From assembly GCA_013373375.1 (NCBI GenBank), contig JABXHY010000009.1:186001-250000 (forward strand): a stretch of DNA of 64,000 nucleotides, written 5' to 3'. The stretch is from Gammaproteobacteria bacterium. GTDB lineage: Bacteria; Pseudomonadota; Gammaproteobacteria; Enterobacterales; Kangiellaceae. Positions 4,015-43,953 of the stretch are shown piece by piece. The position numbers and the translations under genes are program-made. The notes beneath the pieces were generated by a model. It ran no database searches and was not told the DNA's origin. It was given only the letters and a program-made list of their open reading frames with translations. Position 1 is the first letter of the stretch. The number at the start of each line of letters is the position of its first letter.

Positions 4015-5676
4015 TTACCTTCTCTCAACAAGATTGGGATCTAATGCTTTAAAGTTGCCAGCATCATAGATTACCCAATTATAATTATCGATTAAAACAT
4101 TGCGCGCAATTTCACCTGCACTAGAGTAGGCACTTGAGCCAGCATCAAAAACAACATCTTGCTGAACATTTTGGCTGCTCCAACCAAGCAGTAAAGCATC
4201 ATAATTTTCGGTAGAGAGTTTCGCCGACCTAAACATCCGTGTCATGTCAGTGACAGACTCAATATTCCAACCACCTATGTTTTGGTTAAATGATAAAGCG
4301 TAATCAAACATATATGACATATCATCAACAGATGAAACGTCCCACTGACTGATGTCTCTATTAAAGCTGACTGCACTGCTAAACATTCCGTGCATACTTG
4401 TAACAGACGACACGTCCCACTGACTGATGTCGCTGTTAAAGTTGTCAGCACCATGAAACATGTTATACATGCTTGTTACGGAAGACACGTCCCACTGACT
4501 AATATCACTGTTAAAGTTGTCAGCCACATTAAACATAGCAAACATACTCGTTACCGAAGACACGTCCCACTGACTTATGTCGCTGTTAAAGTTGACCGCA
4601 TTAGTAAACATTAAGCCCATATCTCTAACATTAGACACATCCCATTGACTTATGTCGCTGTTAAAGCTGGTAGCTTCATAAAACATCGCTCTCATGTCTG
4701 TAACATTAGACACGTCCCATTGACTAAGGTCGCTTTTAAACTTACTCGCAAAAGCAAACATGCGGCTCATAGTCGAGACTGAAGACACATCCCATTGACT
4801 AATATCGCCATTAAAGTTGATTGCCTTATAAAACATAGAATGCATTTTTTCAACAGAGGACACATCCCACTGGCTAATGTCAGCATTAAAGTTTGTTGCG
4901 TTATAAAACATAAACCTCATATCAGTCACAAATGACATATTAGGAGTGTCGGAGGCTTCGACAACCAAGTTTTCACAGTTAGCAAAAGCGGCGTATCCGC
5001 CTCTCCAAGGGTATGTACCCCACTGCTCTATCGTGAGTAATTTTTGAGCGTCACTTAAACTGACATCTAGATCAAAGTAAGTTTGGGGGAAGAGTCCGCT
5101 TATGGTGATCGTGTAAGTCCCAGGCGAGTCATAATCGTGAGTGTAATCACCTTGGATGTTGCGAGTTTTTGTGCCATCTCCCCAGTCAACGTTATAGTCA
5201 TATTCGTGATTAGGTGAGGTTGTAATCAAAACTTGATTGTTTCCTGACACGCCAGGATTATCGGTTTTCCATGTCGTTAAAAGTGGACTGGTGACGCTTA
5301 TATCAATCCATACATCACTTATTCCTGTGTCATTCTCGGCTATAATTCGATGAATTTCTACTCCCTGAAGAGTGTTTGGAGTTCCAATGATCTCGCAGGA
5401 ATTACCATCTGTGGTTATTTGAATTGCCAAGCCAGCCGGCAAGCTATCTGTTCTGCACTCAAGTAACGAACCACCACCTGAGTTAATGAACCGAATGGGA
5501 ACGATCATTTCACCAATAGGCAAATAATTTACGCTCAAATTGTCTAACGACAAAGAAGGCTCTGAAACAGGCGGCTCACCTCCTCCTGATCCTCCGCTAC
5601 ATCCAACTAGTGAAAACATTATCAAACACATTAATGCAACACGAGTGATAACTAACTCCTTAATGAAATCATTCAT
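4015..5676 (-). CDS. surface lipoprotein with DUF285 (BspA-type) repeats
   Basis: This is a 553-residue secreted protein. The start is supported by AAGGAG six bases upstream. Residues 1-26 form a lipoprotein signal ending in the lipobox LVGC, followed by a Gly/Ser linker. An Ig-like region (about 40-130) and a PKD-like region with VDWGDGT (about 135-200) follow. Nine consecutive repeats of about 25 residues with the core FNSDISQWDVSSVTSM then run from about 265 to 490. These are DUF285 repeats, known from BspA-like surface proteins and thought to mediate attachment. The central repeats are nearly identical at DNA level, so copy number may vary. It is flanked by repeat blocks A and B, which suggests accessory origin. 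Its ligand is unknown. Confidence 0.9.
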   Translation of the reverse strand: MNDFIKELVITRVALMCLIMFSLVGCSGGSGGGEPPVSEPSLSLDNLSVNYLPIGEMIVPIRFINSGGGSLLECRTDSLPAGLAIQITTDGNSCEIIGTPNTLQGVEIHRIIAENDTGISDVWIDISVTSPLLTTWKTDNPGVSGNNQVLITTSPNHEYDYNVDWGDGTKTRNIQGDYTHDYDSPGTYTITISGLFPQTYFDLDVSLSDAQKLLTIEQWGTYPWRGGYAAFANCENLVVEASDTPNMSFVTDMRFMFYNATNFNADISQWDVSSVEKMHSMFYKAINFNGDISQWDVSSVSTMSRMFAFASKFKSDLSQWDVSNVTDMRAMFYEATSFNSDISQWDVSNVRDMGLMFTNAVNFNSDISQWDVSSVTSMFAMFNVADNFNSDISQWDVSSVTSMYNMFHGADNFNSDISQWDVSSVTSMHGMFSSAVSFNRDISQWDVSSVDDMSYMFDYALSFNQNIGGWNIESVTDMTRMFRSAKLSTENYDALLLGWSSQNVQQDVVFDAGSSAYSSAGEIARNVLIDNYNWVIYDAGNFKALDPNLVERR

Positions 5677-30641: not shown

Positions 30642-32798
30642 TTACTTCTGGCTTAACGACTTCCAATCATTATCTTTTTTCCAGTTCTCGAACCACTCAT
30701 TAAACTCTATGATAGGAACGGGTCTGGAAATACCAAAGCCTTGAGCGAGATTACATCCCATATTTAACAATTGCTTTCCATGCTCTATTGTCTCTACTCC
30801 TTCTGCAATCACCTGCTTCTTAAAGGTTTTTGCTAGTTGAATAATGCCTTCAACAATCGCTTTGTCGTCAGAATCGCTTAGCATATCGCGAACAAAGGAA
30901 CGATCGATTTTCAAAATATCAGTTGGCAACCGCTTCAAATAAGTAAGCGATGAATATCCCGTACCAAAGTCATCAATTGAAAAACCTACCCCAAGATCAC
31001 GACAAGCAGTAATCACATCTGCTGCGCGCTCTATTTCGTTAACAGCACTTGTTTCCACTATTTCAAATTCAAGTGAACCTGCTTTAAAATTAGGGAATTC
31101 ACTAATTAATAATTTCAACCTCTCGATAAAGTTTGGGTTTTGCAAATGCAGCGAATCTAGGTTAACACTAATTGGCAAGTTAATACCCTGCTGCGCCCAA
31201 TTTGATAACTGCTCTAATGCCTGCCGGATTACCCACTCACCGACTTCAATGGTAAGTAAATCACCTTCAATAATAGGTAGAAATTTTATTGGAGGTAAAA
31301 GTCCTTCAGTAGGATGAAGCCATCGAATGAGCGCCTCCGCGCCAATCACCAAATTACTACTTAAATCGATCTTCGGTTGAAAAAATAAAACAAACTCATT
31401 ATTCAAGAGTGCCTGACGAATAGTCTCAAGTTCCTCAATATGAAAACGTGATGCTGAATCTTTCTCGACATCAAAAATATGAATGCTATTCTTTCCCGAG
31501 TTTTTTGCGATGTACATCGCCTGATCAGCATGTCGGATTAAATGCGCATAATTGGAACTGTCTCGTGGATAGGTTGTAACGCCAATGCTAGCTGTGATTC
31601 GAATGTCTTTATACTGAATGCTTGCACTTTCACTTACTGCTTTATGGATTTTTTCAAGTACGCTTTTACTATCATCAACCGAATTTAACTCATTAATCAG
31701 CACAACAAACTCGTCACCACCAAAACGAGCAACAGTATCACTTTTACGCAAACAACCTTGAATTTTACTGGCAATATGACAAAGAAGCTCATCTCCAATG
31801 TTATGACCATAAGTGTCATTAATTTCTTTAAAACCATCTAAATCGATAAATACAACCGCCAAATATTGATTACGCCGCTTACAACTCGCAATATTTTGCT
31901 CCATTCTATCTTCGAGCAATGCTCGATTAGGTAACCCTGTCAATGGATCGTAGTGCGCACTTTTTTTAAGGGTATGATTTAAATTTTCAAGTTCTCTGTT
32001 GGTTTTTTCAAGTCGCTTTTGTACAATTTTTTGCTCGGTAATATCTTGAAAGGTGCCTAGTAATTTTCGAGGTTTTCCATTTTCAAATAAAACTATGCCA
32101 TTCGTCCTTACGTCTATTTTTCGTCCTTTTGTCGTGTAAGTTTCCAATTCTAAATCGTAGCCTTCCCCTTTTTCAATCGCTCTCTCCAATGCATTGATTA
32201 TTTGCGCTTTTGAGTCAGGTAAAAAATATCCAACACCAGCATCGACGGTTGGATAAAATTCATCCGGAGAAGTGTCATGAATCCTATAAGTTTCATTTGT
32301 CCAAAATAACTCACCTGATGGAATATCCAGTTCCCAACCTCCAACTTTGGCGATGCGTTGCGACTCTTCCAATAGTTTGGTTTTCCGGTCTAAATCCGTC
32401 TTTTGAGACTTTCTATCATTAATATCTATATGAACACCCAGCATTCGCACTGGTTTTTGGTCTTCGTCGAACTCGATTGTTTTCCCAATAGCGAGTACCC
32501 AATGGTATTTACCTTGTTTGGTTTTCATTCGAAATTCTATTTCGTATGAGCTTGCCAGACCTTTAAAGTGCTGCTCAAGTGACCACTTTGCTTTTTTCAA
32601 ATCATTAGGATGGACTAACCCCTCCCACGTCTCATAAGAGATGGGGTTTAACTCTTCGTGCCTGTAGCCTAACAGTTCAGCCCATCGACGATTAAAGAAC
32701 AATTGCCCAGATTGCACCTGCCAGTCCCAAACGGCTAAATCTGCAGCATCAATAACCAATGCCATTTGCTCGGGTGTTAGTTTACTTGTTGAACTCAT
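30642..32798 (-). CDS. PAS-PAS-GGDEF-EAL cyclic-di-GMP protein
   Basis: A 718-residue soluble protein with two PAS/PAC modules (about 10-130 and 140-270; WDWQVQSGQLFFNRRWAELL opens the first), a GGDEF domain (about 285-445) with an intact RKSD inhibitory site and FGGDEFVVL, and an EAL domain (about 460-705) with IGAEALIRW, DDFGTGYSSLTYLKRLP and AEGVET. Both catalytic signatures are intact, so it may make or degrade c-di-GMP. It is the last gene of the signalling island, 115 bases after the degenerate receiver gene. Confidence 0.93.
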   Translation of the reverse strand: MSSTSKLTPEQMALVIDAADLAVWDWQVQSGQLFFNRRWAELLGYRHEELNPISYETWEGLVHPNDLKKAKWSLEQHFKGLASSYEIEFRMKTKQGKYHWVLAIGKTIEFDEDQKPVRMLGVHIDINDRKSQKTDLDRKTKLLEESQRIAKVGGWELDIPSGELFWTNETYRIHDTSPDEFYPTVDAGVGYFLPDSKAQIINALERAIEKGEGYDLELETYTTKGRKIDVRTNGIVLFENGKPRKLLGTFQDITEQKIVQKRLEKTNRELENLNHTLKKSAHYDPLTGLPNRALLEDRMEQNIASCKRRNQYLAVVFIDLDGFKEINDTYGHNIGDELLCHIASKIQGCLRKSDTVARFGGDEFVVLINELNSVDDSKSVLEKIHKAVSESASIQYKDIRITASIGVTTYPRDSSNYAHLIRHADQAMYIAKNSGKNSIHIFDVEKDSASRFHIEELETIRQALLNNEFVLFFQPKIDLSSNLVIGAEALIRWLHPTEGLLPPIKFLPIIEGDLLTIEVGEWVIRQALEQLSNWAQQGINLPISVNLDSLHLQNPNFIERLKLLISEFPNFKAGSLEFEIVETSAVNEIERAADVITACRDLGVGFSIDDFGTGYSSLTYLKRLPTDILKIDRSFVRDMLSDSDDKAIVEGIIQLAKTFKKQVIAEGVETIEHGKQLLNMGCNLAQGFGISRPVPIIEFNEWFENWKKDNDWKSLSQK

Positions 32799-32913: not shown

Positions 32914-33369
32914 TTAATAAAAATATCGCACTGGTCTTGGTAACATAACGGTATTTAACCAATAGCTGTCTAGCACTCCCATAATCGTAACGATAGAATC
33001 AAACCGATACGAATAGCGAACAATCGATGTAACACCTAAGCTATGGGCTTTTTGAATTTGAAAAGCATTATGCTCTCGACTTGCAACAATCAATGGCAAC
33101 TTGTTTTGATGATGAAATAAATGATCTAATTCAAGTAAGGCATCAATAGTGCTCTGCTCTGATAAGTTAGCCACTAATAAAATTATATTAGGCCTGGGAA
33201 ACTGCTTTTGGTCATTATAAGGTTCATTTTGCGCTAGATAAGCAAAGAGTTGATTAACATCATTCACTAACTCAATACTCGCATTCGGTCGCACAGATTG
33301 GATCGCTTCCAAAAACTGCGGTTGTTCAGATTCAGGGATCAGACATAACATAACCGGTTTATTACTCAT
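32914..33369 (-). CDS. degenerate receiver-domain protein (no phospho-acceptor)
   Basis: A 151-residue protein that aligns with the Rcp1-like regulator at 35065-35502 over most of its length (YNDQKQFPRPNIILL against YDDLEKYPDPGLIIL; VLDSYWLNTVMLP against ELGNYWFSIVEQ). The acceptor Asp is replaced by Ala (LLVANLSE) and the conserved Lys-Pro by Arg-Tyr (VRYSY). The acidic pair near the N-terminus is also missing. It overlaps the REC-GGDEF-EAL gene by four bases (ATGA). It probably binds partners without phosphorylation. Confidence 0.78.
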   Translation of the reverse strand: MSNKPVMLCLIPESEQPQFLEAIQSVRPNASIELVNDVNQLFAYLAQNEPYNDQKQFPRPNIILLVANLSEQSTIDALLELDHLFHHQNKLPLIVASREHNAFQIQKAHSLGVTSIVRYSYRFDSIVTIMGVLDSYWLNTVMLPRPVRYFY

Positions 33370-35072
33370 GAAGCTGCACCGTAATCTTTTTGTAAAAGTT
33401 TAGTCGCCAGTTCCGCATTTAGCGGTTCATTAAAGTAAAGCCCCTGTGCTAAATCGCACCCCTGCTGCATTAATAAATTAGCCTGTTCCTTTGTTTCAAC
33501 TCCTTCTGCAATCACCTGCATATTTAGACCATGTGCCAAGGATATTATGGCCTGATTTATAACTTCCTCTTGCTGACCGACTGATGGACCAGAAACAAAT
33601 GAGCGATCGATTTTTAATTTATCGAGAGGAAAGTTTTTCAAGTATGCCAATGCAGAATAACCCGTACCAAAATCATCCAACGCCAAAGAAATACCAGATT
33701 GTTTTAGATGTTTAAAAAAGCCGATATTATGTTCGCTAGCGTCAATAAAAATTGATTCGGTTAATTCCAGTGTGAGTTTTCCAGGTACTAAATTGTATTT
33801 AATTATCTGCTCGTTTAAATGCGTATAAAAATTAGGTTTTTTCAGCTGCTTGGGAGACATATTTATTGCAATATTGAGATCTCTATAGCCCGCCTTATTC
33901 CATTCATGTAACTGCCTACACACAGTTTCAATTATCCAGTCACCTAACTCGAGAATTAAACCAGATTTTTCTGCGATCGGTATAAATTGTTCCGGCGGTA
34001 TTTTTCCTAAAACAGTACTATCCCATCTTATTAATGCTTCAAATCCATCGAGCCTGTTATCGAGCAAATTATATTGAGGTTGATAGTACATTGAAAATGC
34101 TGGCGTGTTAATTTCTAGTCTTAAAGCCTTTTCAATTTCAGTTTCATATTGAAGTTTCGTTCTCAGCTCTTCGCTAAAAAATTGAAAGTTGTTTTTCCCC
34201 AAGGTTTTAGCTTTATATAAAGCTAAATCTGCTTTTTGCATTAATCCAATTGGCGTATCAGCATTATCAGGAAACATAGCAACACCGATGCTTGTCGAAA
34301 CAAACAAGCTACTTTCATTGATAGGAGTAGGCTTTGTCAGATGTGTGAGGATCTTATTGCATATTGCAACTACAGATTCTGAGTTCTCAACTTGACTCAG
34401 TAGTATTGTGAATTCATCTCCCCCTATTCGCGCTATGATATCTTCCTTTCGCATTAATTCTGTAAGCCGGTTAGCAACAATACTCAGGAGCATATCTCCT
34501 ATATTATGACCAAGTGTGTCATTAATTTCTTTAAAGCGGTCTAAATCTAACAGAAGAACGGCAAACTTTTGGTTTCGTCTTTTTGATATTGCCAGAGTTC
34601 TTTCAAGGTGTTCTTCAAACATGGCTCGATTTGCTAAATTGGTCAAAGGGTCCCGATTTGCAAGATATTCCAATTTTTTAATATATCGAGTACGCTCTAG
34701 AGCGTGTTTAATGGTTCTATCAAGTAGCGAGGCCGATAATTCTTCTTTTGGTAGATAATCTGCGGCTCCGGCATTCATTACCTGCTCATCGACTTCTTCA
34801 CTTTCGGCACCGGTTATAACAATGATAGGAGTCGTTTTACCTATTCTTCGAGCCTCACGAATTAGCTCAAGTCCATCAGATTCACCAAGATAATAATCCA
34901 TTAAATAAACATCGTGATTATCAGCGGCTAAATGCAGTCGAGCATCATTTACATCGCAAATATGTTCTACTTTAAATCGAGTGTGCTTAACTTTTTTTAA
35001 TAACGCTTTCACCAGACGAATATCAACTATATCGTCATCGATTAACAGTACATTGATTTCCTCGTTATTCAT
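33366..35072 (-). CDS. REC-GGDEF-EAL response regulator
   Basis: A 568-residue protein. ATG 35072 is preferred because it overlaps the preceding stop by eight bases. The receiver (about 5-120) has VLLIDDD and acceptor Asp in VYLMDYYLGESDG. The GGDEF domain (about 135-300) has RKED as inhibitory site and IGGDEFTILL. The EAL domain (about 310-560) has GFEALIRWD, DDFGTGYSALAYLKNFP and AEGVETKEQ. Phosphorylation by an upstream kinase would tune c-di-GMP levels. Confidence 0.93.
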   Translation of the reverse strand: MNNEEINVLLIDDDIVDIRLVKALLKKVKHTRFKVEHICDVNDARLHLAADNHDVYLMDYYLGESDGLELIREARRIGKTTPIIVITGAESEEVDEQVMNAGAADYLPKEELSASLLDRTIKHALERTRYIKKLEYLANRDPLTNLANRAMFEEHLERTLAISKRRNQKFAVLLLDLDRFKEINDTLGHNIGDMLLSIVANRLTELMRKEDIIARIGGDEFTILLSQVENSESVVAICNKILTHLTKPTPINESSLFVSTSIGVAMFPDNADTPIGLMQKADLALYKAKTLGKNNFQFFSEELRTKLQYETEIEKALRLEINTPAFSMYYQPQYNLLDNRLDGFEALIRWDSTVLGKIPPEQFIPIAEKSGLILELGDWIIETVCRQLHEWNKAGYRDLNIAINMSPKQLKKPNFYTHLNEQIIKYNLVPGKLTLELTESIFIDASEHNIGFFKHLKQSGISLALDDFGTGYSALAYLKNFPLDKLKIDRSFVSGPSVGQQEEVINQAIISLAHGLNMQVIAEGVETKEQANLLMQQGCDLAQGLYFNEPLNAELATKLLQKDYGAAS

Positions 35073-35502
35073 GATGCTGTTCCACAATGGAAAACCAATA
35101 ATTACCTAATTCTTCCATTATCGTGATGAGCTTATTGAGGCTTAGAGGTTTAGTAATGAAAGAGTCGGCGCCTTCGTTATAGCCTTTGATAACTTCCTCT
35201 TCTTCATTAGAAGTCGTCAGAATAATAACTGGTATATGATTAAACTTATCACTCGATTTAATCTCTTTCAAAGTCGACATGCCATCTTTTACCGGCATAT
35301 TTAAATCCAGAATAATTAATCCTGGGTCCGGATATTTTTCAAGATCATCATAAGGTGAAAGTCGGTTCAAATAATCAATACACTTTTGCCCATTATCGAC
35401 GCATAAGAAAGGATTGGTGAGTTTTGAACGCTTCAATGCCAAATTTGCCAATAACTGGTCTTCTTTATCATCTTCAGCCATCAGTATTGCGACAGGAGTC
35501 AT
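35065..35502 (-). CDS. Rcp1-like single-domain response regulator
   Basis: A 145-residue stand-alone receiver. ATG 35502 has GGGA ten bases upstream. The acidic residues are in ILMAEDDKED, the acceptor is Asp66 in LIILDLNMP, and the conserved Lys is in FITKPL. Such receivers are usually paired with phytochrome-type kinases. The kinase just upstream has the same kind of HisKA domain (ASHDLKEPLRK), so the two are likely partners. Confidence 0.92.
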   Translation of the reverse strand: MTPVAILMAEDDKEDQLLANLALKRSKLTNPFLCVDNGQKCIDYLNRLSPYDDLEKYPDPGLIILDLNMPVKDGMSTLKEIKSSDKFNHIPVIILTTSNEEEEVIKGYNEGADSFITKPLSLNKLITIMEELGNYWFSIVEQHHE

Positions 35503-35520
35503 ATACAATCCCTTATATGC

Positions 35521-37416
35521 TTATTCGTTCATATTGAAGTGTAGTTCAATCACAGTGCCCTCTCCAGGCGATGACGTTGCCATGATGGTGCCACCATGAT
35601 GCTCAACAATTTTCCGACAAATAGCCAAACCAACCCCCGTTCCCTCGTACTCACTTCTCCCATGAAGCCTTTTAAACATTTCAAATATTTGCTCTGAGTA
35701 TTTCTGCTCAAATCCAATGCCATTATCTTCAACAAAAACAGTAACTTGATGAATGTTAACCTGCTCAGAGTAAATCTTTATTCTTGGAGTTTCGTCGCTT
35801 TTTCGATATTTGAGGCTATTGCTAATTAAATTTTGAAACAGCTGATACATCTGAGAAGGCTCAGCGAGAATTTCAGGTAACTCGACCACCTGAATATCCG
35901 CTTCTGTTTCTTCGATTTTCAGTTCCAGGTCCGTTAAAACTGTTTTAATAACTTGATTTAATGCAACATTTTCAAATGGCTTTGCTCGAGAGGTGACACG
36001 ACTGTAAGTTAATAAACTTTGTAATAAACTCTGCATTCGCACCGTCGCGCTAATCATGTATTGAAGGTAATCTTTAGTGTCGGGCTCTAGCTTGGCTTCT
36101 ACCTCTTCCTTTATCAATTGTCCGAAGGAAATTATTTTTCTTAATGGCTCTTTTAAATCGTGAGACGCTATAAATGCAAAGCTCTCCAGCTCCTTGTTGG
36201 ATCTTTCCAATGCTCTATTTTGACGCTCTAGAGCTTTTTTCGCGTTTATATTTTCTGTGATATCACGAGCTATTACCGAGGCTCCAATAACTTTACCATC
36301 AAAATCCTTCACTGGTGAGATGGTTAACATGACATTAACTAACGAACCATCTTTTTTGACCCTAATCGTCTCAATATGTTTTATCTTCTTGCCCGACTTT
36401 AACTCATTCAAAAAGTCAAAAACTTGCTGATGAAGTTCTTGAGGAACAATTTTTAAAATACTCTCCCCTACCATTTCACTTTCATCATAACCATACAGAG
36501 TCTCTGCGGCTGGATTCCAATGAGTCACTGTTCCGTCAAGCTCTTTACCGATAATGGCATCATCACAAGAACTCACAATTTCGGAAAGATATGAGCGAAC
36601 TTCTTCAGCCTGCACTTTATACGACTGATCAGAAACCGACATAAAAATGATTTGCTCTCCAAGATAAGTCTCACCATGTGCTCGAACTTCAACGGGAACA
36701 AGATCACCGTTCTTTTTCTTTGCATAGATAATTGAAGGACTGATGTAACGAAAATTTGGACCTTGCTCGCTCGTAAGTCGGTCGATAACTTCCTGGCTAA
36801 AAAAGTTTGACTCGACAAATAAAGAACTCACTTCCATATCAACTAGCTCACTGTTTTGAAAGCCAAAAATCTCATTGATTTCATCATTAACTATTCGAAT
36901 TACGCCACGCTTACCAATCGCTAATAGGCCAACTGGAGCAGCGTTTAATGACAGTTTAAATAATCGCTCAGACTCTCTTTCAGCTTGCAGACGTGATTTT
37001 TCGATTTCCTTCTCTGCAACTAGGCGGTTAGCTGTTTCAATTTGCTCAACTGATGGAATACTAAGAATATTCGGTATTAGTTTGAACAACACTACCGCAC
37101 TCAATACAGATACAACCGCAGTTGCAATTTTTGCAACACCATGTATTCCGTATATTCCATGCCAAATGGTAAATATACTTAATAAATGTGTCACACCGCA
37201 TAGAAAAATAAACAGTGAAAACAATAGAAAGACTTTTTTAAACTTCCAATCGGTTCGTTTTTTCTTAATCAGGAAGAGTAATACAGGAATTGAAAAATAA
37301 GAGGCCGCTATTAAAATATCAGACAACACATGTGTCCATAATATTTCCGGTCGCCAAAGATAACAATGCCCATGCGGCATGTAACTGCCATCGAAAAAAG
37401 ACGTTAATAAATCCAT
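35521..37416 (-). CDS. sensor histidine kinase with ethylene-receptor-like membrane domain
   Basis: A 631-residue protein starting at ATG 37416. Residues 1-125 are three membrane helices that match the ethylene-binding domain of plant ETR1 and cyanobacterial homologues: VLSDILIAASYFSIP and FIFLCGVTHLLSIFTIWH. Asp33, Tyr40, Ile43, Pro44, Ile70, Cys73 and His77 sit at a constant offset of eight from ETR1 Asp25, Tyr32, Ile35, Pro36, Ile62, Cys65 and His69, the copper/ethylene site. Two PAS domains (about 145-265 and 270-390), HisKA with FIASHDLKEPLRK, and HATPase with NLISNSLKYR, DNGIGFEQ and GTGVGLAIC follow. It heads a row of c-di-GMP regulators. Confidence 0.9.
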   Translation of the reverse strand: MDLLTSFFDGSYMPHGHCYLWRPEILWTHVLSDILIAASYFSIPVLLFLIKKKRTDWKFKKVFLLFSLFIFLCGVTHLLSIFTIWHGIYGIHGVAKIATAVVSVLSAVVLFKLIPNILSIPSVEQIETANRLVAEKEIEKSRLQAERESERLFKLSLNAAPVGLLAIGKRGVIRIVNDEINEIFGFQNSELVDMEVSSLFVESNFFSQEVIDRLTSEQGPNFRYISPSIIYAKKKNGDLVPVEVRAHGETYLGEQIIFMSVSDQSYKVQAEEVRSYLSEIVSSCDDAIIGKELDGTVTHWNPAAETLYGYDESEMVGESILKIVPQELHQQVFDFLNELKSGKKIKHIETIRVKKDGSLVNVMLTISPVKDFDGKVIGASVIARDITENINAKKALERQNRALERSNKELESFAFIASHDLKEPLRKIISFGQLIKEEVEAKLEPDTKDYLQYMISATVRMQSLLQSLLTYSRVTSRAKPFENVALNQVIKTVLTDLELKIEETEADIQVVELPEILAEPSQMYQLFQNLISNSLKYRKSDETPRIKIYSEQVNIHQVTVFVEDNGIGFEQKYSEQIFEMFKRLHGRSEYEGTGVGLAICRKIVEHHGGTIMATSSPGEGTVIELHFNMNE

Positions 37417-37523
37417 TTTGTGTCTCAAAATAATTTCTTGATTGGAAATGATTATAGAACAGATACTATTTAATTGAGGTTAAACAGAATTAAGACTGAG
37501 TCAAAATCTCAACAAACCATACC

Positions 37524-39779
37524 TTATCCGTTTTCAGCAGTAGACATGGCTTGTTCAATGGTTTCTTTTAAAATATTCAGATTGATTGGTTTCGCAATAT
37601 AATAGTTCATTCCGGCTTCAAAGCATTTTGTTTTATCTTCTGACAGAACATTCGCCGTCATAGCAACGATCGGCACATTTTCATTACCCGGCAATTTTCT
37701 AATCAATTTAGTCGCTTTAATACCATCCATTACGGGCATTTGCATATCCATAAAAATTAAATCGAATTTCTCTTGCTTTACTTTATCAACTGCTTTGAGC
37801 CCATTTTCTGCCACTTCGACCTGACAGCCGATTTTGATTAACATTTGTTTCGCTATTAATTGATTGACCTCATTGTCTTCTACCAATAATACTCGTACAT
37901 CCAGATTAACATCGATTTGTTGGCTTGCCTCGTCTTCCCTTATCTCATCTCCTTGTTCGAGAGTAACTTCAAAATAGAAAGTCGAGCCTACCCCTTCCTC
38001 ACTCTGTACACGAAGTTCACCTCCCATCAACCCGACTAATTTACTTGAAATTGTAAGCCCTAAACCTGTGCCACCAAATCGACGAGTAATAGAAGTGTCC
38101 GCTTGAGAAAACGCTTTGAAGAGCCCATCTAAGTTTTCCTGACTAATACCAATACCCGAGTCAACAACTTCAAATTTCACATTGTAAGACTTAGCGCCAA
38201 CAGGTGATGAAGAGATTTTTATTTCAACACTGCCATGAGAAGTAAACTTAATAGCGTTGCTCACCAAGTTCAAAACGACTTGTTTAATTCGTGTGACATC
38301 TCCCACTAAGAATTCTGGTAAATTTTTATCAATCTTGTCATAGTTGAATCGAATTCCCTTATTGTTCGCTTGCGCAGTAAAGATAAAACCAACTTCACGT
38401 ATCATTTTCAAGATAGAAAATGAATTCTGTTCAATATTCACTTTACCAGCTTCAATTTTGCTCAGGTCTAAAATATCATTAAGAACGGTCAGTAAGCCCT
38501 CACCAGAAGAAGAAATGGTGTCCACCATATCCTTTTGTTCCGCATCAAGTCGTGTGCCTTTTAGTAAACTTACCATTCCAAGAATTCCATTCATAGGTGT
38601 TCGAATTTCATGGCTCATATTAGCCAAGAACTGAGACTTAACTTGCGTCATTTGTTCTGCGGATATTTTTGCGTCGTGTAACTCCTGACTTCTAACCCTA
38701 AACTCATTTGCAGCCTTTGATAAAAGTCCTATCTCATCTTTTCGCATAGTACCGGGTACCTTCCTTGAAAAGTCACCCTCCAAATAATCTCTAAACGCAT
38801 TGGCAATTCCCCTAATCCCTCTCGAAATATGATAGTTATAAAATAAGAATAAAAAGATCAAAATTACAGCTGAGAAAATTAGAGAATTACGCATTAGAGT
38901 AAGTCCGCTATCCACCTGTTTATCACTTTTCACTTTTAACTCATCTAATAAAGAAAGGGTGCGTTGACGTAATCCTTTTGCTAGTGTTGAAAACTCAGAT
39001 GACTCGCCCGCCATAACAACATTAACTAATGAAAGATAAATCCTGTTTGCCTGAACGCTTTTATCAAATATTCTTTCGTATTCTTTAGTTGTTGATATAA
39101 AGTCTTTGACTAATGATGCATGTTCTTTATCAAAAGCTTTCGTCAGTTGATGTATTAAGATAAAGAGTTGTTTTAAATTCTCTTTGACATTTTGACGTTG
39201 TTTAAAATCACGGTTAACCAAAAAGCCCAAAGCATTAAAGTTAGACTCGAGCCAAAACTTTTCAATTTGCAACAAAACCTCTCTATCTTCACTTAGGGTA
39301 GATTTAGAGAACAACTCTCTAATTTGTTGAGTGCCTTTTCGCTTGATGGCTGGTAACTCGTTAGATAAAAGGTTTTTTCGGTAACTATAACGCTGCTTCA
39401 ACGCATTAATATTTTCTCCATAACGCGCAACGACCTCTTTCATACTATTCACAATCGAATTGATGATGTCATCATTTGTATCTTGAGAAACCTGTTCCAG
39501 CTGAAGTTGAATGTCAGCATAATTTTCTTTCATCTGCTCGATAAGTGCGTCATTCCCTGATTGCCCATATACCAATGCAGTTTTCTGTAACTCAATAATA
39601 TTATTATTGATTTCCAAAACTGAAACAGAATTATTAGAAACGCGATCGAGTTCATTTATCGAATAATCAATTTCTTTAATATTATCCAATATTAATAGAA
39701 GGGTAATCGCAAATAGCGCAACAACCAGTGTTAAACCCAGCGCGATTTTAAATCCTATTGAAATTCTTTGAATTGCCAC
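37524..39779 (-). CDS. hybrid histidine kinase with HAMP and receiver domains
   Basis: A 751-residue protein with a GTG start (AGGA six bases upstream). A membrane helix at 10-30, a helical periplasmic domain of about 270 residues, a second helix at about 301-321 and HAMP are followed by HisKA with [15 protein letters not shown], HATPase with [17 protein letters not shown] and [10 protein letters not shown], and a receiver with acceptor Asp in [13 protein letters not shown]. The architecture resembles TorS. The binding-protein gene 46 bases upstream is probably its periplasmic partner. Confidence 0.92.
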
Positions 39780-41432: not shown

Positions 41433-43796
41433 TCAGGGCATAGGGCATATCGGCACTATTTGAACGGAAGAATGAAGATCATCATTCAACTCCCTGACAT
41501 CGCCAGCGTCAGCAGGTCGGATGCAGTCGTCACCAGGACCACCACTGTAACGAGCCAACTTTGGAGAAGTAAAAGAACTACACCCTGCAGCGTTACACGC
41601 TCTAACCTTGTAGTACTGATTGCTGGTTACATGCACAATACGAGAGCGATTGGGTGCATTTACCGTAGAATTGAAATAGTAATTGCCGGTACTGGAGGTC
41701 CCGCTGCTTTTGTAAACTTGATAATAATCAGCTTGGCTCACAGCATTCCAATACAAAGTATTCGTGGTGCCACCAGAGTGTGAAATATAAAATCCCGATG
41801 GTGTCGCAGGTACGCTTAGGCCATCTCCACCATCGACACAAGTGAAACCGTAAGAGTGAAACAAAGTTTCAATATCGGGTCCATCAACTGGATTGGCATT
41901 GACTAAATCTTTTCCGAAATCACACGCTGTATAAACATCGTTTTGTAAAAGACTGAACACAGGCCTTAATTCCTGAGAGTGAGAAATAAAAGTATTATCA
42001 GAAATTCGACCGTTAAATACATTAGTCACTCTATTACCAGTCGTACCATCTCGGAAATCAGCAGAAAAGTCAGCTTGATTATCAATCACATCCCAGAAAA
42101 GTCCCTGCAAAAACCAGCCTTGAAACTCAGCATTTTGTGCAACACTTAGTGGAACAGTATAAGCATCGTAACCATCCATTAGTCGAGAAATCTGCCAACT
42201 GCTTTCCCAGGTATTCCAGTCTCGAGCAACACCATAACGATCCAACATGGCTCGAAACTCGACTAAAGTTGCCCAACCTTCTGCCAGTGCAATTTGTTTT
42301 GCCGCGGTAAATGACGGTTCACTACCATCACCATAAGGAGCAAAATCTGGCGCTGTCGTGAGCATGTTCGCTAACTCAGACGCAACTAACTTCGCCCAAT
42401 ACCAAGAGCCTGCTTGTTTTGAATGAGAATAATGAGCAGCTTCATGAAAAACTAACTGTTCAATCTCGCGAGTATTGACGACACCGCGAGTTCGGTTAAA
42501 CCCTTGCAGTCCGGAAAAAATCATATCGGGTTGCAATCTTTGAGGAACTAAGTTGATAACATAAGAGGCCGCGCTGTTAACTAAAACATCCCAGACATTT
42601 GATTGACCAATACCGGCAATCGATGAGATTTTAGAAAGATGACGATGGTGATTAAACATTGGCGTTGCACCAACCGACTGACCATTTTTCCACACCCAAA
42701 CATTCGCGCCTGACACTAACTTACTAATACCATTAGCAGCAGCGTAATCATTGTATTTAACTAAACCGTTATGCACAGTTCCCTTGTACCATAAACGATC
42801 ATCACCAAAGTTAATGTTTTTAGTGCGACCGTTGCTGCTTCGAGTAATCGTCATTAAATGATCAGACACTTGAATGCCCAGCATTTCATTCCATGACTTT
42901 CTTATAGTCGCTATGTTACTGCGCCATTTGGCTCGAATTCTAACTTTGCCTCGGTATTTTTTCGGTGACTCAAAATGTCCATTATTGTCGGTGTGGGTAT
43001 ATTGCCACCAAAAGCCGCGACCAATACTTATTTTAGCTTGTCGCAAAGGCTCCATTTTGTTTGAAGAGTTGGTTTGCGCAACTTCAGTGTTTTCGATCAT
43101 CACATAACCGTGCGGGCGGTATCGACGAGAAAATATTCGCTGGCTCGCTGCGGTATTATTCTGGAGAGTTGCTCCCTCATCTGTGTTTGACGGAGTAATG
43201 CCATCGTCTTCACAAATTATTACACTGCCTTTACAGCTGTCTTCGTTTTCCCAGCCAGCAGCTTCCAGTGCCATGGATTCAACGTCATACTCTTCATCGG
43301 TCGGCCGATATAATTTTTCTAATACCTCATAAGGAAGTCCGGTCGGCATATTGAATCCAACAGGTATAACGGTATAGACCGGATAAAATAAATCCGTCTC
43401 GTCATGAGGCATTACATAATAATCACCATCTGAGTTGATTTCCCGATCCAACGGATGGTCTTGCAAAACAATATCGCCATTATTGGCACCATCTAAATTT
43501 TTCAGTAAATTTAAATGAAATTGATTCGTTGGGTTAATTCGTATGTATTGATGGGTGGCTTGAATTGTTGGCCTGTTGTCATAGGGCGAGTTTGGTACTT
43601 TTTGATTATATCGAGAAAAGGCCCGTTGCATATTGTCGACACTGTAAGGGTTTTCCAGTCGAGCACCCAATGCTATCTGACTTTGATTCCCCGACTCCTG
43701 AAGCTTGGCGGCTTCTTTATTCATAGCAAGTGTTGGGTTGCCATGAAATACACATGCTGCGGAAAATAGCAGCAGCGATATTTTTTTTATGTTCAT
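41433..43796 (-). CDS. secreted HEXXH metalloprotease-like protein with C-terminal fibronectin-type domain
   Basis: A 787-residue protein. ATG 43796 is chosen because a signal peptide starts there (MNIKKISLLLFSA). The N-terminal half is of unknown fold, with a beta domain near 250-300 (HTDNNGHFESPKK) of carboxypeptidase-regulatory character. LVFHEAAHYSHSK carries the zinc motif (His451, Glu452, His455), and no obvious third ligand could be assigned. A fibronectin-III-like domain (about 665-755; TNTLYWNAVSQADYYQVYK) precedes a Cys-containing tail. No known peptidase family could be named. It is probably extracellular. Confidence 0.75.
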   Translation of the reverse strand: MNIKKISLLLFSAACVFHGNPTLAMNKEAAKLQESGNQSQIALGARLENPYSVDNMQRAFSRYNQKVPNSPYDNRPTIQATHQYIRINPTNQFHLNLLKNLDGANNGDIVLQDHPLDREINSDGDYYVMPHDETDLFYPVYTVIPVGFNMPTGLPYEVLEKLYRPTDEEYDVESMALEAAGWENEDSCKGSVIICEDDGITPSNTDEGATLQNNTAASQRIFSRRYRPHGYVMIENTEVAQTNSSNKMEPLRQAKISIGRGFWWQYTHTDNNGHFESPKKYRGKVRIRAKWRSNIATIRKSWNEMLGIQVSDHLMTITRSSNGRTKNINFGDDRLWYKGTVHNGLVKYNDYAAANGISKLVSGANVWVWKNGQSVGATPMFNHHRHLSKISSIAGIGQSNVWDVLVNSAASYVINLVPQRLQPDMIFSGLQGFNRTRGVVNTREIEQLVFHEAAHYSHSKQAGSWYWAKLVASELANMLTTAPDFAPYGDGSEPSFTAAKQIALAEGWATLVEFRAMLDRYGVARDWNTWESSWQISRLMDGYDAYTVPLSVAQNAEFQGWFLQGLFWDVIDNQADFSADFRDGTTGNRVTNVFNGRISDNTFISHSQELRPVFSLLQNDVYTACDFGKDLVNANPVDGPDIETLFHSYGFTCVDGGDGLSVPATPSGFYISHSGGTTNTLYWNAVSQADYYQVYKSSGTSSTGNYYFNSTVNAPNRSRIVHVTSNQYYKVRACNAAGCSSFTSPKLARYSGGPGDDCIRPADAGDVRELNDDLHSSVQIVPICPMP

Positions 43797-43953
43797 TGTA
43801 TTAGCTCTCTGATTAATATTTTCGATTGTTGAGTTCCAACGGCGAAACAATAGTGGAGAGAGCTGAAAGATAGCTGAGGAAAAGTTAAGGCTTACTTAAT
43901 GTTTAGTTAATGCCTGATTCATTAAGTTAAAAACAGTCATTAAGTCTATTGAA

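Follow-up and report, generated by a model that had tools for sequence, protein, structure and literature searches.

Genes of the kinase locus

The window (the whole 64,000-nucleotide stretch analysed) carries on its reverse strand a gene for a sensor histidine kinase with an N-terminal domain of the ethylene receptor type, followed by genes for a stand-alone receiver, a REC-GGDEF-EAL protein, a pseudo-receiver and a second GGDEF-EAL protein (Table 1). The kinase reading frame covers 35521–37428 when its TTG start is taken; the ATG at 37416 gives the residue numbering used earlier, and numerous stop codons are present on the plus strand opposite the gene. The Pfam search of the kinase showed a match to ETR1_N at residues 25–120 (E 5.1e-34, 116.9 bits, above the curated cut-off of 27), a PAS fold in two stretches (the best at residues 277–386), HisKA at residues 416–476 (E 1.6e-10) and HATPase_c at residues 520–629 (E 3.5e-25). 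No GAF domain was found in the kinase by this search at E ≤ 0.001, the PAS folds being present instead. The ETR1_N, HisKA and HATPase_c matches confirmed the original prediction of an ethylene-receptor-like kinase at this position.

Table 1. Features of the kinase locus, in window coordinates
Feature	Position	Strand	Remarks
EBD-PAS-PAS-HisKA-HATPase sensor kinase	35521..37416	(−)	631 aa from ATG; Pfam
Predicted ethylene-binding domain (EBD), residues 25–120	37057..37344	(−)	Pfam, AlphaFold, alignment
Stand-alone Rcp1-like receiver	35065..35502	(−)	ATG at 35502 (ORF list: TTG 35508); IILDLNMP phosphoacceptor motif intact
REC-GGDEF-EAL	33366..35072	(−)	GGDEF, RKED I-site, EALIRW and DDFGTG present
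151-aa pseudo-receiver	32914..33369	(−)	Overlaps REC-GGDEF-EAL by 4 nt; without Pfam match
PAS-GGDEF-EAL	30642..32798	(−)	115 bp beyond pseudo-receiver
Hybrid histidine kinase	37524..39779	(−)	Upstream of EBD kinase, 95 bp away

The receiver gene starts 12 nt (TTG) or 18 nt (ATG) past the kinase stop codon and is co-directional with the kinase gene, which is the two-component arrangement of the AzoEtr1 type. The expectation of an Rcp1-like receiver behind the kinase was borne out, since the best PDB relatives of its product, after the CheY-like regulators 5ic5, 5brj and 5te9, are RCP1 (1jlk and 1i3c, about 3e-22), RcpB and RcpA. The ATG of the REC-GGDEF-EAL gene at 35072 gives an overlap of 8 nt with the receiver stop. 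With the starts of the ORF list, the kinase, receiver and REC-GGDEF genes lie in this order on one strand with gaps of 12 and −23 (limit 250 bp), which is the definition of the three-gene unit used in the comparison below.

The pseudo-receiver is paralogous to the stand-alone receiver but has diverged from it (32 of 141 positions identical, pairwise E 4e-14), and it lacks both the acidic pocket and the phosphoacceptor Asp. A fast-changing pseudo-receiver was observed behind REC-GGDEF-EAL in two genomes of the same genus, that of the window and that of L133 (3710–4168 (−), also without the Asp; sources other than the window carry L numbers).

Two GGDEF-EAL genes had been predicted downstream of the kinase. 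Both are present, and their catalytic and I-site motifs are intact by pattern; the pseudo-receiver between them had been missed, and only the first is the conserved partner of the kinase. PAS-GGDEF-EAL, which is not beside the EBD kinase in the same-genus L132, L133 and L134, is probably a neighbour and not part of the module, and the upstream hybrid kinase looks incidental to it. Both were rejected as parts of the system, being absent from the side of the kinase in L132 and L133. Promoter and terminator scans gave no more hits than shuffled sequences (19 against 21.8 and 5 against 4.8, respectively).

The predicted ethylene-binding domain

With the own genome counted in every sample, ETR1_N matches over the family cut-off were found in 6 of 41 relatives; for the genus the count was four of five genomes (no match in the remaining one), for the family 5 of 40, for the class 12 of 369 (sampled genomes) and for the phylum 28 of 398. 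The own genome contains one match and the 14 control genomes none; the match is therefore not due to chance. A chance resemblance to the ETR1 N-terminus was also ruled out by the profile value (E 5e-34) taken together with the presence of all seven residues discussed below.

For comparison, 126 sources were assembled from 80 loci (the best of 216 confirmed stretches), 45 further genome stretches and the window; 117 of them gave an EBD gene in the ORF selection and nine gave none. The best 80 of 216 were fetched with the motif [DSK][YF]MPHG[HM]C, and the set leans towards relatives of the window. Neighbouring domains were found with profiles built from the window proteins, except for those checked with Pfam. 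L165, taken as the genome of L025 on account of the same gene sizes, and the fragment L149 were dropped from the tree, the loose-adjacency counts and the per-type counts, and were kept in the strict-order counts (21 of 86), the fusion count, the seven-residue count and the motif counts.

Residues were paired in a 118-row MAFFT alignment including AtETR1. The ETR1 residues D25, Y32, I35, P36, I62, C65 and H69 correspond to D33, Y40, I43, P44, I70, C73 and H77 of the kinase at a constant offset of 8, so that the earlier claim of a complete site held for 7/7 residues. The alignment also holds outside these residues: 40 of 120 aligned positions are identical to AtETR1, and 36 of 95 across ETR1 18–115, the membrane part. 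The AlphaFold model, calculated with a 93-row alignment (a chosen part of 112 references, which are without L147, L148, L149, L165 and L175), showed a confident three-helix bundle (mean pLDDT 91.7) with helices at residues 23–53, 60–86 and 89–119. In this model D33, Y40, I43 and P44 lie on helix 1, and I70, C73 and H77 on helix 2. No related solved structure was found in the PDB, either by sequence or, at E ≤ 0.001, by fold. On the strength of profile and alignment, the assignment as a predicted EBD is well supported.

Ethylene binding has been reported to require the seven residues (PMC11819568), and it also needs copper, for which C65 and H69 are described as putative ligands (PMC6586836). 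By homology, C73 and H77 would ligate Cu(I), at which the domain would bind ethylene. All seven residues are kept in 92 of the 117 EBDs and the C65/H69 pair (ETR1 numbering) in 112. The conservation of the copper pair, together with the copper requirement itself, would also suit a domain acting mainly as a copper or redox sensor, in which Cu(I) at C73/H77 sets the kinase, ethylene is not the natural signal and the output to c-di-GMP is the same. A PHGxC motif (P14, H15, G16 and C18, window residues 14–18), near-invariant before helix 1 in the 93 EBDs, points the same way, but its conservation is partly inflated, as part of the loci were fetched with a motif containing it. We consider such a sensor unlikely, since the other five residues are kept too, the AzoEtr1 domain has been shown to bind ethylene (PMC11819568) and SynEtr1 reportedly does so as well (PMC5812497). 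Ethylene as the ligand is suggested by the seven residues and by these proven relatives.

At least one of the seven residues differs in 25 of the 117 EBDs, and the cluster in the window contains a pseudo-receiver; both would fit a reading of the whole set as a degenerate or inactive relic whose domain is kept as a membrane anchor only. This is very improbable for the window, in which the seven residues, the GGDEF, I-site and EAL motifs and the phosphoacceptor motif of the stand-alone receiver are all intact, and whose EBD shares 72% identity with the EBD of L133, from the same genus.

Association of EBD genes with c-di-GMP enzymes

Of the EBD kinases, 86 are not truncated by a contig end. A stand-alone receiver comes next in 34 of them, and in 21 a receiver is in turn followed by REC-GGDEF(-EAL), an order that none of the 47 other kinases at these loci shows. 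All 34 and all 21 are among the 58 non-hybrid EBD kinases (34/58 and 21/58, the latter 20 without L165). The unit, as far as gene order shows, is thus EBD kinase, receiver and REC-GGDEF(-EAL). The GGDEF pattern is present in 19 of the 21 operon partners, the other two having AGDEF. EAL motifs were found in five (the window, L041, L133, L134 and L167) and not in the remaining 16, of which L029 is cut by a contig end.

When REC-GGDEF was sought within two genes on either strand, it was found for 36 of 100 EBD genes (L165, L149 and fusions left out), as compared with two REC-GGDEF among the 833 genes at a distance of at least four places. It was found for 20/20 of the operon group, by definition, and for 8 of 36 genes of the remaining EBD types. 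In the clade of the window it accompanies 29 of 36 EBD genes (22 on the same and seven on the opposite strand), and outside this clade only seven of 64. Other kinases in the same loci, a small and local control (n = 50), showed it in five cases, four of which have an EBD gene within three places. In three Bowmanella loci (L042, L046 and L053) REC-GGDEF-EAL adjoins the EBD kinase on the opposite strand; the L042 kinase has a HisKA_2-type core.

The own genome gave 40 HisKA, 77 GGDEF and 74 receiver profile matches. Only three of the 77 GGDEF matches start less than 5 kb from a same-strand HisKA, two of them at this locus and the third in one reading frame with its kinase; by gap length one further pair is present (contig C2, 4,926 bp), and the HisKA profile alone misses other kinase types.

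The kinase might serve the free Rcp1-like receiver only, as has been proposed for AzoEtr1, with REC-GGDEF-EAL a neighbour under other kinases. Indeed, no gene lies closer to the kinase than that of the free receiver, a protein of Rcp1 type, and in 13 cases the EBD kinase precedes a receiver without REC-GGDEF beyond it (L101 has a truncated GGDEF frame there). However, the REC-GGDEF gene is retained in units of different families and in different gene contexts, it overlaps the receiver gene in the window, and it is also found behind hybrid EBD kinases with an incorporated receiver (L039, L059 and L143). An exclusive role of the free receiver is accordingly rather doubtful. The suggestion that kinase, receiver and GGDEF-EAL act in c-di-GMP control gained from the comparison as regards the link itself, which the order counts (21/86 against 0/47) and the clade (29/36) make well supported; the inclusion of the second GGDEF-EAL protein did not stand. 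REC-GGDEF lies within two genes of eight of 31 hybrid EBD kinases, the other 23 being without it, and of none of the 13 EBD kinase–receiver pairs. Therefore, c-di-GMP appears to be one output among several.

A direct connection was found in 15 of the 117 EBD genes, in which the EBD is fused to GGDEF: 13 EBD-GGDEF proteins of 301–343 aa and two EBD-PAS-GGDEF-EAL proteins. Pfam agreed for the six fusions checked (L045, L081, L092, L100, L138 and L141). The seven residues are kept in 13/15, GG[DE]EF in 15/15 and the RxxD I-site in 14/15. The 13 short EBD-GGEEF proteins are those of L045, L056, L060, L063, L064, L069, L073, L077, L081, L090, L092, L096 and L100, eight of them from Methylophaga or Alteromonas. 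Such a fusion would allow ethylene control over a cyclase to be tested directly in a single protein.

The EBD tree (115 EBDs, 132 columns) was obtained by a quick search; 51 of its 112 inner branches are open, and the positions of long rows are uncertain. The tree puts the window into a starred set of 36 rows, the named members of which are one verrucomicrobium and otherwise gammaproteobacteria, many of them of marine genera. The operon label needs seven changes on the tree, at least three of them forced by starred branches, and the fusion label three, at least two of them forced. In L134, of the genus of the window, an EBD of another lineage heads the same order of kinase, receiver and REC-GGDEF-EAL, and by eye the units of L132, L133 and L134 have different neighbours. 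Therefore, the link between EBD and c-di-GMP appears to have originated, or been transferred, on more than one occasion.

A candidate route from ethylene to c-di-GMP

We consider it probable that the locus encodes a membrane-bound histidine kinase of the ethylene receptor type that has a dedicated output to c-di-GMP. Its N-terminal bundle of three helices would carry Cu(I) with ethylene bound at the copper, and the ligand state would pass through the PAS domains to the kinase. From gene order and family we infer phosphotransfer to two receivers, the free Rcp1-like receiver and the REC domain of REC-GGDEF-EAL. The latter protein would then raise or lower c-di-GMP, with an effect on attachment or motility, and the free receiver would probably act as a phosphate sink or open a second branch of the pathway. 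Ethylene most likely reduces the activity of the kinase, to judge from ETR1, SynEtr1 and AzoEtr1; inhibition by ethylene is the model for the first two and a prediction for the third (PMC11819568). For units with cyclase-only partners, ethylene should lower c-di-GMP.

Ethylene-binding bacterial kinases are already known (SynEtr1 and AzoEtr1), and the window locus is a variant that suggests a route to c-di-GMP. The original prediction held that non-photosynthetic bacteria with this domain are little studied, which does not agree with the work on AzoEtr1 of Azospirillum brasilense (PMC11819568). In Azospirillum, Carlew and co-workers reported that ethylene lowers c-di-GMP and biofilm, and stated the route from the receptor to be unknown (PMC11819568). 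Like the window kinase, AzoEtr1 is an EBD-PAS-kinase with all seven residues and a stand-alone receiver gene (AzoRR-etr1) downstream, which there overlaps the AzoEtr1 gene, and it shares the biofilm and c-di-GMP theme. Unlike it, AzoEtr1 has 525 aa and one PAS domain, and the parts of the source used here describe no REC-GGDEF partner; its ethylene binding is proven (PMC11819568), whereas that of the window kinase is predicted from sequence.

In SynEtr1/UirS (Slr1212) of Synechocystis the EBD likewise belongs to a histidine kinase, and response regulators are encoded downstream, but the protein contains a light-sensing GAF domain and is described as signalling via Slr1213 to a small RNA (PMC11819568, PMC5812497, PMC7700396), whereas the window kinase has PAS domains and is accompanied by a c-di-GMP enzyme. 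Plant ETR1 shares the three membrane helices, the seven residues at offset 8 and a kinase-type C-terminus; it differs in its disulfide cysteines 4 and 6 (PMC6586836), in place of which bacterial EBDs have PHGxC, and in a ser/thr kinase route as opposed to a bacterial receiver output, with the 36/95 identities given above. PcrK/PcrR of Xanthomonas likewise joins a plant-hormone sensor kinase to a response regulator acting on c-di-GMP, but cytokinin is sensed through a CHASE domain and PcrR is a phosphodiesterase (PMC7700396). In the cyanobacterium Geitlerinema, the gene for the EBD protein GeiEtr2 is grouped with one for a diguanylate cyclase domain; this is a neighbourhood only, and the consulted part of the source describes no receiver/REC-GGDEF unit (PMC6682694). 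A review records a wide range of output domains for bacterial EBD proteins, the word GGDEF being absent from the text consulted (PMC7700396). No EBD-GGDEF protein and no EBD kinase/receiver/REC-GGDEF operon was described in the titles and abstract beginnings among the matches listed, and an earlier description is possible.

The locus and its relatives bring a receptor-type kinase and a c-di-GMP enzyme together in one compact gene set, and an EBD kinase beside such an enzyme offers a testable route for a bacterial reaction to ethylene gas. A wider reading may tentatively be put forward, in which many mostly marine gammaproteobacteria use ethylene as a general c-di-GMP cue, read through the mobile three-gene unit and through one-component EBD-GGDEF cyclases. 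The latter (in Methylophaga, Alteromonas, Arsukibacterium and Halioglobus) would then be gas-gated and kinase-free, and ethylene from sunlit dissolved organic matter or from other organisms would switch cells between attached and swimming life. Photochemical formation from dissolved organics is a named source of ethylene (PMC11819568, PMC6682694). If this reading is true, a plant-hormone receptor domain is a recurrent c-di-GMP input in sea bacteria, far from land plants. Own ethylene production was also considered: a single DIOX_N match in the genome exceeded the cut-off (E 9e-8), in a 286-aa frame, and Pfam returned DIOX_N again for an 85-aa piece of this frame.

Elsewhere in the window, an 805-aa protein encoded at 41433–43850 (−) gave no Pfam match at E ≤ 0.001, and a 553-aa protein encoded at 4015–5676 (−) matched DUF285, a family named from Mycoplasma, with E 3e-105.
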